Shown: piece after piece, positions 2,945 through 52,780 of the stretch
Numbering within the stretch: position 1 is the stretch's first letter
Layout: the number at the start of each line of letters is the position of its first letter
From: Bacteroidia bacterium
GTDB lineage: Bacteria > Bacteroidota > Bacteroidia > CAILMK01 > JBBDIG01
Length of the DNA: 57,712 nt
Assembly: GCA_040880525.1 (NCBI GenBank)
Contig: JBBDIG010000060.1
Coordinates: 1 to 57,712, forward strand
Reading direction: 5' to 3'
Program-made: the position numbers and the translations under genes
The notes under the pieces: generated by a model
Databases searched by the model: none
What the model was told of the DNA's origin: nothing
What the model saw: the letters and a program-made list of their open reading frames with translations, nothing else

Positions 2945-3516
2945 ATGGAAAAATTTAAAAATAAATACCGCATTCCTTCAGCCCGCGCCCAGTGGTGGGA
3001 TTATGGATGGAACGGTGCGTATTTCATTACGATTTGCACCAAAGACCGGGAATGGCTTTTTGGGGAAATTATAGACGGGAATATGAATTTTTTTACCAAC
3101 GGCCATTTTGCCCATGCCTGTTGGCAGGAAATCGCCAATCAATTTTCATTTGCGGATTTGGGCGATTTTATCGTCATGCCTAACCATGTACATGGTTTTT
3201 CATTATTGACAAACCGAATGGTGGACGTGATTCCGTAGAGACGCGATTAATCGCGTCTCTACGGTCGCAATCGCCACAACCAGGCGGTTTTGTCGGGAAT
3301 AAAAATCCAATGTTTCACGAAAATATTTCGCGTATTGTCCGATGGTACAAGGGACGTTGTTCGTTTGAAATGCGGAAAACCTGTCCCGATTTTGCCTGGC
3401 AATCCCGTTTCCATGACCGAATCATCCGAAACGATGAGGAATACCAGCGCATTTCAGATTACATCATCACCAATCCCCAATATTGGGATTGGGATAAATT
3501 CAATTCGGATAAATGA
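2945..3516 (+). pseudogene. REP-associated tyrosine transposase (RAYT, Y1/IS200-like), frameshifted
   Basis: The first frame (2945-3238) encodes the N-terminal half with the HUH motif MPNHVHG at the end of the metal-binding strand. The second frame encodes the C-terminal half with the Tyr-bearing helix (SDYIITNP). Joining them needs one base at the T5 run 3196-3200: with six T the frame continues as IIDKPNGG..., as in intact homologues. In the restored frame the 32-nt palindrome at 3233-3264 is read through as VETRLIASLR, so the REP element sits inside the transposase coding sequence. The protein would be about 190 residues, normal for RAYTs. It may be a pseudogene, a sequencing error at a homopolymer, or a programmed shift; a pseudogene or error is most likely. 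Confidence 0.8.
3233..3264. repeat. REP-like perfect palindrome (32 nt) inside the RAYT gene
   Basis: A perfect 32-nt palindrome with half-site CCGTAGAGACGCGATT followed by its exact reverse complement. The outer GTAGAG...CTCTAC ends match those of the 28-nt palindrome at 36124-36151, so both belong to one family. Its position inside a RAYT gene fits the idea that RAYTs mobilise REP hairpins. Confidence 0.85.
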
Positions 3517-36123: not shown

Positions 36124-36151
36124 GTAGAGGCAGGATGCATCCTGCCTCTAC
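36124..36151. repeat. REP-like perfect palindrome (28 nt), GTAGAG family
   Basis: A perfect palindrome with half-site GTAGAGGCAGGATG followed by its reverse complement. It shares the GTAGAG...CTCTAC ends with the copy inside the RAYT gene at 3233-3264. It lies just upstream of the start of the leftward 475-aa gene. Confidence 0.85.
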
Positions 36152-48669: not shown

Positions 48670-51600
48670 TTGCTCAACAACCACACATACTTTTCCCACG
48701 GCTATGGAGCCATGTCGCCTGAAGAGCTGCTACAGGAGGCAAAATCCAAAGGCTGGGAAACTGTCCTGCTGACCGACATCAACACTACGGCTGCGGTGCT
48801 GGACTTCATCCGGCTGGCGGAGGAGCAGGGAATACGCCCCGTGGTGGGCATTGATTTCCGCATTGGCGTGGCGCAGCAATTCGTGGCGCTGGCACGAAAC
48901 AACGAAGGGTTCCGGGAGATGAATGAGTATTTGTCGCTTTATTTCCCCCAACCCTCCAAGGGTTCCGAACCCTTGGAGGGTTTAGAACCTATCGCCAACA
49001 CCCCCCTGCCCCCCTCAAGGGGGGATTCATTCGCTCCGCAGGAGCTAAACTGTCCCCTTGAGGGGACTACAGGGGTGTCTGCCGCGCAGCGAGACACAGA
49101 ACTTTCCAAAAGTTTGGAACTTTTGGAAAGTTTCCACCACTGCTACCTCATCTATCCCTTCCTGAAAGCACCTCAACGCAAACTCCGCGAAAACGAATTC
49201 ATCGGTATCCGGCCATCGCAGTTGAACCGGCTACGCTACCAAATCTCCAAGGTTTCCAAAACCTTGGAGATTTCAAAGCTCGTGGTGATGCAGCCCGGCA
49301 CATTCCGCCACAAGCGCGATTTCAATGCACACCGCCTGCTGCGCGCCATTGACTTGAACACGCTACTTAGCAAGCTGCCCAAATCAGAAGAAGGGCTACC
49401 GGAAGATGTGATGTGGTGCAGGGATGCATTGCGCACCGCCTTCTCCGACTTCCCGGAGATTATCGCCAACACTGAGCGCCTGCTGGAAGACTGTTCCATT
49501 CATTTCACTTTTGGCGAGTATTCTAACGTTAACAACAAGCGGGTTTTTACTGATTCCATTGCCAATGACCGTGAACTCATCCGCAGCCTGTGTGAGAAGG
49601 GGATGGCGTACCGCTTTCCCAACTCCCGCAAGGACGTGCAGGAGCGGGTGGAGAAGGAACTGGAAGTAATTGAGCAGCGGGATTTCCTCAGCTATTTCCT
49701 CATTAACTGGGACATTGTGAATTATGCCCGCAGGAACAACTATTTCTACGTGGGACGTGGCAGTGGCGCCAACAGCATGATCGCCTATCTCCTGCGCATT
49801 ACCGATGTAGATCCCATCGAGCTGGACCTCTACTTCGAGCGCTTCATCAACCCCAGCCGGAAGCAGCCGCCCGACTTCGACATTGACTTCTCATGGCGCG
49901 ACCGGGAAGACGTGACACGGTATATTTTCGAAACCTATCCGAATGCAGTTCTGGTAGGCTCCCACACTACCTTTAAACAGCGGGCGGTAATGCGCGAACT
50001 GGGCAAAGTCCTGGGGCTGCCGCCACGAGAAATTAACAAGCTGAGCCAACCTAGCCTGCACCTGCAAAAGCTCGATGATATGGCACTGCTGGTGTTAAAA
50101 TACAGCCGCTATATCCAGAACTTTCCACACCACAAAACCATCCATTCCAGCGGTATTCTTATTCCCGAAAAATCTATCTTTTGCCACGGGGCCACCTTTA
50201 TGCCGCCCAAAGGCTTTCCCACCACACATTTTGACATGTACATTTCAGAGGATGTAGGGCTGCATAAGTTCGACATCTTGGGGCAGCGCGGCCTGGGCAA
50301 AATCAAGGATGCACTGGAGGTGATCCGCCTCAACAACCCCGCTGAGCCGGAAATTGACATTCATAACATTGAGCCTTTTAAACATGACGAGCGGGTGAAG
50401 GCGATGCTGCGCAATGGGGAGACGATGGCCTGCTTCTATGTGGAATCGCCCGCCATGCGCAGCCTGCTCACTAAGCTACACGCGGATACTTATCTGGGGC
50501 TGGTGGCAGCAAGCTCCATTATCCGTCCGGGCGTGGCACAATCGGGAATGATGCAGGAGTACATCAAGCGCTTCCGCCACCCGGAAACCCGCAAATACAT
50601 CCATCCCAAACTGGGCGAATTGATGCACGAAACCTTTGGCGTAATGGTGTATCAGGAGGACGTTCTGAAAGTGGCGCACTACTTTGCCGGCCTCACCCTG
50701 GCCGAGGCTGACGTGCTGCGCAGGGGCATGAGCTGGAAGTTTCGCGAGCGCAACGCTTTCTGGAAAATCAAGGACAAATTCTTCAGCAACTGCCATGAAA
50801 GGGGCTATGAAGAAAGCGTGACCGGGGAAGTGTGGCGGCAGATCGAGAGTTTTGGCAACTATGCCTTTGCCAAAGGCCACTCGGCCAGCTATGCGGTGGA
50901 AAGCTACCAGAGCCTGTATCTGAAGGCCCACTTCCCGCTGGAGTACCTTGTGGCGACCATCAACAACGGAGGTGGCTTTTATACCACCGAAGTGTACGTC
51001 CACGAAGCCCACATGCAGGGTGGCATTATCGAGGCACCCTGTGTAAACAACAGCGATTTGGAAACCTGCATAAAAGGGCGACACATTTACCTGGGCCTAA
51101 ACCTGATGAAAGACCTGGAGGCGCGGGCGATTAAGGTACTGCTCACTGAGCGCGAAAGGCTTGGGGAATTTGTCAGCCTGGGCGATTTCGTAGGTCGTGT
51201 GGAAATTTCGCTGGAGCAGCTCATCATTCTTATCCGCATCAACGGCTTCCGCTCGTTTGGCATCGGCAAAAAGGAACTGCTTTGGGAAGCACATTTCCTG
51301 CTGGGACATGCGAAAAAGTCGAGGCCAACGCTGGACCTGTTCATTACCCGCCCCAAAAAACTCACCCTTCCTAAACTGGAATACGGGGAAAACGAAGATG
51401 CCTTCGATGAGATTGAAATCCTGGGCTTCCCGCTGAGTTCACCCTTCAGCCTGCTAGATACCATTCCACGCGGCACCATCATGGCGCAGGAGATGCCACA
51501 CTATATCGGCCAACAAGTGCGCATGACCGGCTACCTCGTCCATGTAAAGAACCTGCACACCCGCAGCAAAAACCCGCAGCACATGCAGTTCGGGACTTTT

Positions 51601-51846
51601 ATTGATGAGGAAGGCCATTTCATAGATTCCGTCCACTTTCCCAACACAGCCGCCCGGTACCCCTTTCGGGGCCGCGGCTGCTATTTGTTGACAGGCAAGA
51701 TAATCGAGGAATACGATTTCGTAAGTTTGGAAACGCACACGATGGAGAAGATTCCGTTGTATGATATGAAGGTGCAGACGCGGTCGCTGGCGGGGGTAGC
51801 GAGACAAATTATTTCACGCAAAGCCGCAGAGTCGCAAAGAGAATGA
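48670..51846 (+). CDS. dnaE2: Error-prone DNA polymerase, DnaE2/ImuC type, with palindrome insertions in its PHP region
   Basis: A 1058-residue C-family polymerase. The TTG at 48670 is the only usable start, because a stop lies three codons upstream and the N-terminal PHP motif (NNHTYFSHGYG) begins at once. PHP residues follow (VLLTDIN). The catalytic motif PDFDIDF is at residues 401-407, and a C-terminal OB-fold region is at about 950-1030. It lacks the long C-terminus of replicative DnaE and matches DnaE2/ImuC, which makes mutagenic translesion patches with ImuA/ImuB; neither is in this window. Codons 94-155 and 191-202 contain palindromic insertions absent from orthologues I know. The stop codon lies in a tandem repeat. 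Confidence 0.88.
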   Translation: MLNNHTYFSHGYGAMSPEELLQEAKSKGWETVLLTDINTTAAVLDFIRLAEEQGIRPVVGIDFRIGVAQQFVALARNNEGFREMNEYLSLYFPQPSKGSEPLEGLEPIANTPLPPSRGDSFAPQELNCPLEGTTGVSAAQRDTELSKSLELLESFHHCYLIYPFLKAPQRKLRENEFIGIRPSQLNRLRYQISKVSKTLEISKLVVMQPGTFRHKRDFNAHRLLRAIDLNTLLSKLPKSEEGLPEDVMWCRDALRTAFSDFPEIIANTERLLEDCSIHFTFGEYSNVNNKRVFTDSIANDRELIRSLCEKGMAYRFPNSRKDVQERVEKELEVIEQRDFLSYFLINWDIVNYARRNNYFYVGRGSGANSMIAYLLRITDVDPIELDLYFERFINPSRKQPPDFDIDFSWRDREDVTRYIFETYPNAVLVGSHTTFKQRAVMRELGKVLGLPPREINKLSQPSLHLQKLDDMALLVLKYSRYIQNFPHHKTIHSSGILIPEKSIFCHGATFMPPKGFPTTHFDMYISEDVGLHKFDILGQRGLGKIKDALEVIRLNNPAEPEIDIHNIEPFKHDERVKAMLRNGETMACFYVESPAMRSLLTKLHADTYLGLVAASSIIRPGVAQSGMMQEYIKRFRHPETRKYIHPKLGELMHETFGVMVYQEDVLKVAHYFAGLTLAEADVLRRGMSWKFRERNAFWKIKDKFFSNCHERGYEESVTGEVWRQIESFGNYAFAKGHSASYAVESYQSLYLKAHFPLEYLVATINNGGGFYTTEVYVHEAHMQGGIIEAPCVNNSDLETCIKGRHIYLGLNLMKDLEARAIKVLLTERERLGEFVSLGDFVGRVEISLEQLIILIRINGFRSFGIGKKELLWEAHFLLGHAKKSRPTLDLFITRPKKLTLPKLEYGENEDAFDEIEILGFPLSSPFSLLDTIPRGTIMAQEMPHYIGQQVRMTGYLVHVKNLHTRSKNPQHMQFGTFIDEEGHFIDSVHFPNTAARYPFRGRGCYLLTGKIIEEYDFVSLETHTMEKIPLYDMKVQTRSLAGVARQIISRKAAESQRE
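48950..48982. repeat. 33-nt palindrome 1 inside dnaE2
   Basis: Perfect arms AACCCTCCAAGGGTT and AACCCTTGGAGGGTT (15 bp) with a 3-nt loop CCG. It begins at the second base of a codon and encodes QPSKGSEPLEGL together with flanking bases. Confidence 0.9.
48998..49078. repeat. 81-nt inverted repeat inside dnaE2
   Basis: Outer arms ACACCCC(C)CTG and CAGGGGTGT, and inner arms CCCCTCAAGGGG (49011-49022) and CCCCTTGAGGGG (49054-49065). Each inner arm is itself nearly palindromic. The reading frame stays open through it (TPLPPSRGD...NCPLEGTTGV). Confidence 0.85.
49100..49132. repeat. 33-nt palindrome 2 inside dnaE2
   Basis: Perfect arms AACTTTCCAAAAGTT and AACTTTTGGAAAGTT with loop TGG. Same length, arm size and codon phase as the copies at 48950 and 49241. 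Encodes ELSKSLELLESF with flanking bases. Confidence 0.9.
49241..49273. repeat. 33-nt palindrome 3 inside dnaE2
   Basis: Perfect arms AAATCTCCAAGGTTT and AAACCTTGGAGATTT with loop CCA. Same size and codon phase as the other two. Encodes QISKVSKTLEIS with flanking bases. Confidence 0.9.
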
Positions 51847-52053: not shown

Positions 52054-52386
52054 ATGAAAGTTCATCTGATAAAGAAACAAACCATTGAAGATTATGTAGA
52101 GGAGCATGCTGCTGGCCATTCAGCATTTGAAAGGTGGCTTTCTATAATCTTAATAGCAGATTGGGAAGAACCTGCCGATATCCTTTTCACCTTTGGATCG
52201 GCTGATATTTTAGGCAGTGGGAGCAACAGAGTGGTCTTCAACATTGGAGGAAATAATTACCGGATGATCTGCAAATATGCATTTGGAAAAAAAATGGTAC
52301 ACCTATTTGTTTGCTGGATGGGAACACATGCTGAATACACCAGGCTGTGTAATACAAACATGCAGTTTGACATAAACAAATATTAA
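52054..52386 (+). CDS. higB: HigB-type toxin (mRNA interferase)
   Basis: A 110-residue toxin of the HigB family (PF09907 type). The conserved order of motifs is FERWLSIIL near residue 25, ADILFTFGSADIL at about 41-53, VVFNIGGNNYRMICKYAFGKKMVHLFVCWMGTHAEY at about 60-95. The last part is the hallmark HLxxxxxHAEY region that contacts the ribosome A site and mRNA. It is encoded first, with the antitoxin gene immediately after it, the reverse of most type II pairs and typical of higBA. An 8-bp dyad lies upstream. HigB cleaves mRNA on the ribosome. Confidence 0.9.
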   Translation: MKVHLIKKQTIEDYVEEHAAGHSAFERWLSIILIADWEEPADILFTFGSADILGSGSNRVVFNIGGNNYRMICKYAFGKKMVHLFVCWMGTHAEYTRLCNTNMQFDINKY

Positions 52387-52387
52387 G

Positions 52388-52780
52388 ATGAAGAACAAAC
52401 TGAAATACGCGATTATCAAGACCCGCCAACAGTACAATGAGTACTGTCAACAGCTTGAAACCTTGGCATCCACAGGAATGGATTCTAAACAGGATGAAAT
52501 CGAACTCCTCACCTTTCTGATTGAGAAATGGGATAAGGAGCATAGCACCTTTACGGAAAAGGATCCTGTAGAGACTTTAAAATACCTGATGGAAGAGAAT
52601 GGCCTCAAGGCCATGAACCTTATGGCAATTTTAGGAGTTTCAAAAGGAATGGTATCAGCAATTCTGAATTACCGAAAAGGTCTGTCTAAGGAGAATATCA
52701 GGAAGTTGGCTGCGTACTTTAAAATATCTCAGGAAAATTTTAACAAGCATTATTCGCTGGACAGCGTTTTATCGAAATAA
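52388..52780 (+). CDS. higA: HigA-type antitoxin (XRE/HTH)
   Basis: A 130-residue antitoxin that starts 1 nt after the higB stop codon. Residues about 60-115 form an XRE helix-turn-helix (LKYLMEENGLKAMNLMAILGVSKGMVSAILNYRKGLSKENIRKLAAYF). The N-terminal part is an extended helical region (YNEYCQQLETLAS) as in HigA proteins with an N-terminal toxin-binding arm. It neutralises HigB and represses the operon through the dyad at 52007-52027. Its location next to dnaE2 and dispersed repeats fits an accessory insertion. Confidence 0.9.
   Translation: MKNKLKYAIIKTRQQYNEYCQQLETLASTGMDSKQDEIELLTFLIEKWDKEHSTFTEKDPVETLKYLMEENGLKAMNLMAILGVSKGMVSAILNYRKGLSKENIRKLAAYFKISQENFNKHYSLDSVLSK

Follow-up and report, generated by a model that had tools for sequence, protein, structure and literature searches.

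Palindromes in a Bacteroidia dnaE2 gene as likely copies of a 33-nt REP-like repeat, and their probable link to a divergent RAYT subgroup

The dnaE2 gene of a Bacteroidia bacterium contains three perfect, in-frame palindromes, which we consider likely to be copies of a mobile, REP-like repeat: a nested palindrome of 33 nt without the GTAG/CGTC tag. Judging from palindromes in and around the corresponding genes, such elements are probably spread by a divergent subgroup of RAYT transposases. The window, i.e. the whole stretch of DNA that was analysed, comprises 57,712 nt. The features discussed below are the following:

48670..51846, + strand: dnaE2 (error-prone DNA polymerase III alpha-like), intact ORF hosting the insertions
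48950..48982, + strand: palindrome 1, 33 nt, AACCC-type arms, core TCCAA...TTGGA, peptide (Q)PSKGSEPLEGL
48998..49078, + strand: imperfect inverted repeat of 81 nt, a second family, ACACCCC..CCCCTCAAGGGG / CCCCTTGAGGGG..GGGGTGT, arms of 25 nt with 80% complementarity
49100..49132, + strand: palindrome 2, 33 nt, AACTT-type arms, peptide (E)LSKSLELLES
49241..49273, + strand: palindrome 3, 33 nt, inner arms AAACC-type, outer arms AAATC, peptide (Q)ISKVSKTLEIS

The dnaE2 ORF starts with TTG and encodes 1058 amino acids with the Pfam domains PHP, DNA_pol3_alpha, finger and HhH. Its best orthologues share 50–61% identity, and the catalytic motif PDFDID is kept. The polymerase gene of the window has remained open and its product is probably active. 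A previous, sequence-only reading of this DNA had described three perfect 15-3-15 palindromes in dnaE2 that share one codon phase. Both points are correct: at the positions given above the arms are 100% complementary over 15 nt around a loop of 3 nt, and each of the three elements starts at codon position 2. Palindrome 1 can also be read with arms of 16 nt and a loop of 1 nt. The encoded peptides are QPSKGSEPLEGL, ELSKSLELLESF and QISKVSKTLEIS for palindromes 1, 2 and 3, respectively. The remainder of the 57.7-kb window is free of perfect 15/3 palindromes, as were all 40 copies of it generated with a first-order Markov model. As single-stranded DNA each of the three folds fully, with energies of -13.6 to -16.8 kcal/mol (z-scores from -5.8 to -6.8).

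The 81-nt repeat represents a fourth insertion in dnaE2 that had been overlooked in the sequence-only reading. It is located between palindromes 1 and 2, corresponds to 27 codons and is in the same phase as both. Its core is present at 7 places in the genome to which the window belongs (G000). Members of the CCCCTTGAGGGG family with ACACCCC/GGGGTGT ends were observed elsewhere in this genome at C38:98598-98773, C28:122016 and C55:1368 and 13847, and a palindrome similar to the 81-nt family is located downstream of dnaE2 in Winogradskyella (L057:7025-7062). Two further palindromes of the window, at 3233-3264 and 36124-36151 (GTAGAGACGCGATT.. and GTAGAGGCAGGATG..), are intergenic, have GTAG and CTAC at opposite ends, and resemble double-foot GTAG REPs of another class. 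Just downstream of dnaE2 (52054-52780) there is a pair of small genes whose translations, inspected by eye, look like a HigB-type toxin and a HigA-type antitoxin.

An alignment with 22 orthologues revealed residues 93–153 of the window DnaE2 as an extra segment, which holds palindromes 1 and 2 together with the 81-nt repeat. The linker at this position comprises ~10–13 residues in the orthologues as compared to ~60 in the window protein, and subtraction of 33 + 81 + 33 nt (49 codons) leaves about the linker length of the orthologues. Within the order, the protein matches in 11 further genomes are interrupted at approximately residues 92–154. Palindrome 3 is located in a loop of variable length, where the net gain amounts to just ~4–6 residues, which means that its insertion either displaced a few codons or hit a loop that was short. 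In the AlphaFold model residues 92–147 have a pLDDT below 50; palindrome 3 starts at the end of a helix, within a block of mean pLDDT ~63. The earlier suggestion that dispersed copies of a palindromic element had inserted into dnaE2 with the frame kept is thus borne out. Its corollary, that the peptides are extra to the protein, applies to palindromes 1 and 2, whose peptides are missing from the orthologues, and to palindrome 3 only to the extent of its small net gain. Among 91 other dnaE2 loci no palindrome of the TCCAA...TTGGA family was found.

The repeat family was assembled from 395 Bacteroidia genomes, 15 of which contributed a total of 61 places. The consensus, A....TCCAA.....NNN.....TTGGA....T, is 33 nt long and has sharp ends. 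Three matches (L008, L184 and L234) were treated as chance because their outer arms are unpaired, which leaves 58 copies. Beyond the 3-nt centre each position of the arms is paired in 52–61 of the 61 places, and the first base outside drops to the chance level (16/61); near-complete pairing spans exactly 15 + 15 positions. The arms covary, with 98.3% of cells paired (83.9% in shuffles) and 101 double-changed cells (37.7 in shuffles). Each half of the palindrome is itself an inverted repeat (X-TCCAA-X'; 91.8% of cells paired). Where pairing within the halves conflicts with pairing of the full hairpin (L168, L169 and L235), it is the long hairpin that is retained. The layout is that of a nested palindrome, X-TCCAA-X'-NNN-X-TTGGA-X', which forms a hairpin of 15 bp when single-stranded; variants with TTGGA ahead of TCCAA occur as well. 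Target duplications of at least 3 nt accompany at most one of the 61 copies at each length, and no motif or consensus was found in the flanks of these copies. The family consensus lacks the GTAG/CGTC tag. A search of Rfam gave nothing better than chance, and a search by sequence among open-licence papers found no paper on the 33-nt repeat.

The genome of the window was examined by searching and sampling. Its 3.8 Mb contain five copies of the core pattern TCCAARRNTTNNNAANYYTTGGA and one variant of 34 nt, i.e. six copies, and none of the reversed form of this pattern. Three of the six sit inside dnaE2 within 324 nt, a clustering far from random. Exact-pattern copies are more numerous in G005 (19), G359 (16) and G270 (7), and genome G084 has two family copies. 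Genome G005 also contains a hybrid palindrome (L310:1554-1588) with a TCCAA core in one arm and a TACGA-type core in the other. In G359, half-palindromes (AAACCTCCAAGGTTT) occur in short tandem arrays that close with a full palindrome (L223:2855-3028, L221, L222, L219 and L230), one example having a period of 47 nt and 3.7 copies. An interpretation of the half-sites as IS ends was discarded: they fall in full palindromes, imperfect copies or the G359 arrays, and no intervening transposase was seen.

The majority of the copies (46 of 58) are located outside of ORFs of at least 120 aa. Counting gene ends no more than 40 nt from a copy gives 23 3' ends, most of them 3–14 nt away, and 6 5' ends; intergenic copies often follow a stop codon at this distance. 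The coding copies occupy all three codon phases. Position 2 is the start in the three dnaE2 palindromes, a molybdopterin oxidoreductase and a broken RAYT; position 3 in an Eco57I-type methylase, a methylmalonyl-CoA mutase ORF and seven RAYT ORFs; and position 1 in a kynurenine-formamidase-like cyclase. In the molybdopterin oxidoreductase, a fused protein, the in-frame copy is located between the [2Fe-2S] and hammerhead domains, and in the cyclase it faces a 10-residue gap in the homologue. In genome G372 (L189, ~1490-1530) an element lies within one ORF at the point where methylmalonyl-CoA mutase is joined to a truncated mutase-like segment, possibly a fusion.

These placements bear on the idea, put forward in the sequence-only reading, of a coding-adapted palindromic element that resembles the Rickettsia palindromic elements and was selected to spread through ORFs in a single phase. 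The dnaE2 trio by itself would fit, as it shares one phase, encodes stop-free peptides and consists of multiples of three, and the copies inside RAYT genes are also in one phase. The wider family speaks differently: a specialization for protein-coding sequence is at odds with the largely intergenic distribution, a single phase with the three phases just listed. The length is not a sign of coding selection either, since intergenic copies have the same size of 33 nt. Finally, the element is least prone to stop codons when it starts at codon position 2: in this phase 58 of 61 copies are open, as compared to 45 and 46 in the other two. We therefore regard adaptation to coding sequence as quite improbable.

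The preference for gene 3' ends could also indicate a transcription terminator or a hairpin at mRNA 3' ends that is selected after genes and has strayed into dnaE2. The spacing of 3–14 nt past stop codons and the stable fold agree with such a role. It leaves unexplained, however, why the TCCAA core is conserved and the unit exactly 33 nt long, as well as the copies within RAYT genes and the RAYT link as a whole; a terminator within dnaE2 would be harmful, and a function at 3' ends can be incidental, which has been proposed for REPs as well. This explanation appears very unlikely. Still less probable is mobilization by a DDE transposase, with the repeat being a minute MITE or two joined IS ends. 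The two 15-bp inverted repeats with their variable 3-nt spacer do look like abutted IS ends, and the single half-sites in the G359 arrays point in the same direction, but neither a target duplication nor a flank consensus is present, and in a Y1 subgroup 16 of the 18 genes have such palindromes. As for dnaE2 alone, a single insertion might have been copied twice by local duplication, which would account for three of six genomic copies within 324 nt. The arm types AACCC, AACTT and AAACC/AAATC differ, however, and each also occurs in other genomes. Because of these three arm types separate insertions or conversions would be needed in any case, and we consider local duplication unlikely.

The link between the REP-like repeat and RAYTs emerged from a palindrome-flanked ORF in G359, which is an HUH protein and led to the divergent RAYT subgroup. 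Members of this subgroup were gathered by relaxed searches, followed by a profile search of 30 genomes (n = 18). They are characterized by the motifs FYHIYN.AN...LF..E.NY.FFL, AYCLMPNHFHF, FSN.FNSY.QAFNK.Y.R.GSLF...FKRK and YIHANP..HG. The HUH and Y motifs are present, the latter region reading mostly YIHANP or YIHQNP. The WQ motif (motifs according to table 1 of PMC6006769) is missing, with mostly SLF at that place. Five tested members match the NCBIfam entry REP_Tyr_transpos (NF047646) with 44.6–62.8 bits (E-values from 1e-11 to 3e-17), the curated cut-off being 80 bits, and the subgroup scores ~14–20 bits in a PF01797 search. The first hits with PF01797 all belonged to other Y1 classes, in whose flanks the palindrome was rare.

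A palindrome of 31–41 nt lies inside the gene or at most 150 nt away in 16 of the 18 subgroup RAYTs. The corresponding frequencies are 4–6% for random 900-nt windows and 4 out of 33 for Y1 genes outside the subgroup. These numbers are descriptive, because both the set and its controls were selected with the first few cases already known, and the set grew from those. Palindromes with the TCCAA/TTGGA core are associated with RAYTs in G270, G206, G359 and one gene of G005, and other cores elsewhere. In these four genomes the repeat thus flanks a cognate RAYT: on both sides in G270, ~46 nt upstream in G206, and with one copy inside the gene together with one just past the stop codon in G005 or one upstream in G359. 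The three RAYTs of G005 each have their own repeat family, with the cores TTGGA/TCCAA, TGACA and TCGTA.

Seven of the 18 ORFs contain an in-frame palindrome. In six of them it is located 9–30 residues past the HUH motif, always at codon position 3 and always 33 nt long. The seventh is at the extreme N-terminus and perhaps lies upstream of the true start. In the RAYTs with both inside and flanking copies (L270, L253, L275 and L279) at least one flanking copy matches the internal core. The recurrence within RAYT genes could in part be the vertical inheritance of one old insertion.

Neither the genome of the window, where the best hit (42 bits) belongs to another RAYT class, nor G084 with its two palindrome copies yielded a strong RAYT of this subgroup. 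The genome of the window does contain RAYTs of the WQ class. Two near-identical genes of 183 aa each are arranged in tandem (C48:51222-52052), and a broken one (C38, L145:10432-10936) carries a TCCAA palindrome at a ~80-nt deletion that took out the HUH motif. The flanking hairpins of this broken gene (GGCGCGAGC..GCTCGTGCC) are of another type.

Based on these observations we propose the following course of events for the 33-nt repeat. The RAYT, an HUH single-strand nuclease, would recognise the hairpin and copy or insert it into single-stranded DNA without target duplication. Copies that enter genes would survive if they are in frame, free of stop codons and located in flexible linkers. The dnaE2 copies are probably separate insertions into two loops of the PHP region, since their arms are of three types and all three types also occur in other genomes. 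The copies in the genome of the window may be leftovers, as a strong RAYT of the subgroup is missing there. Their clustering in the window dnaE2, set against the absence of copies from 91 other dnaE2 loci, could reflect either a hot spot or tolerance combined with history.

Taken as a whole, the findings tip the balance somewhat towards an undescribed REP-RAYT system of Bacteroidota. It would comprise RAYTs without the WQ motif and tag-less, nested 33-nt palindromes, a RAYT-internal in-frame copy whose core changes with the flanking copies, in-frame copies in dnaE2 and other genes, and a dnaE2 gene hit thrice by different arm types. Such a system would offer a likely source for anonymous hairpin repeats of Bacteroidota and widen the REP-RAYT concept past GTAG-tagged repeats. 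The RAYT-internal copy would be a natural record of joint change in transposase and repeat.

Rickettsia palindromic elements, to which the sequence-only reading had likened the dnaE2 palindromes, are mostly longer and are known for insertion into coding sequence. The likeness holds for palindromes in frame in unrelated genes with the protein kept open, and fails for the mainly coding distribution, the family copies being 33 nt long and mostly intergenic. REP elements and RAYT transposases are the closer relatives, and the dispersed 33-nt copies fall within the size range of 20–40 nt of REPs in the broad sense of palindromic repeats tied to a RAYT. The spread of REPs is attributed to their RAYTs, nucleases that act on single-stranded DNA (PMC6006769, PMC8266576). 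A survey from 2013 reported in-frame REPs inside genes, often genes of DNA synthesis or repair with DnaE2 named among them, and double insertions of GTAG/CGTC REPs in uvrA (PMC3733652). In-frame REPs in genes, dnaE2 included, have thus been known since then, and the present dnaE2 case repeats the 2013 observation independently in another phylum and with another repeat. Like the GTAG/CGTC REPs, the 33-nt family is short, palindromic, mostly intergenic near gene 3' ends and in some cases in frame in ORFs; unlike them it is tag-less, nested with a 5-nt core, found in Bacteroidota and associated with a different RAYT subgroup.

According to a survey from 2018, RAYT genes of subclass 2.4 hold in-frame REPs between the HuH and Y motifs, while subclass 2.6 of Bacteroidetes is accompanied by atypical hairpins and subclass 2.1 by none (PMC6006769). 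In our subgroup, too, palindromes occupy in-frame positions between the HUH and Y motifs as well as positions next to the gene, but the WQ motif given for 2.4 is missing from the proteins and GT[AG]G from the palindromes. With subclass 2.6 it shares the phylum and flanking hairpins without GTAG; it is set apart from 2.6 (WQ, YIH[QN]NP) by its motifs, with SLF replacing the W motif and YIHANP or YIHQNP in most members. The WQ-type RAYTs in the genome of the window (C48) are unconnected with the TCCAA palindrome. Without a GTAG/CGTC tag and with RAYTs that lack the WQ motif, the 33-nt family and its transposases fall, by their sequence features, outside the GTAG/CGTC REPs and subclasses 2.4 and 2.6 as defined, though they appear to be alike in their working.
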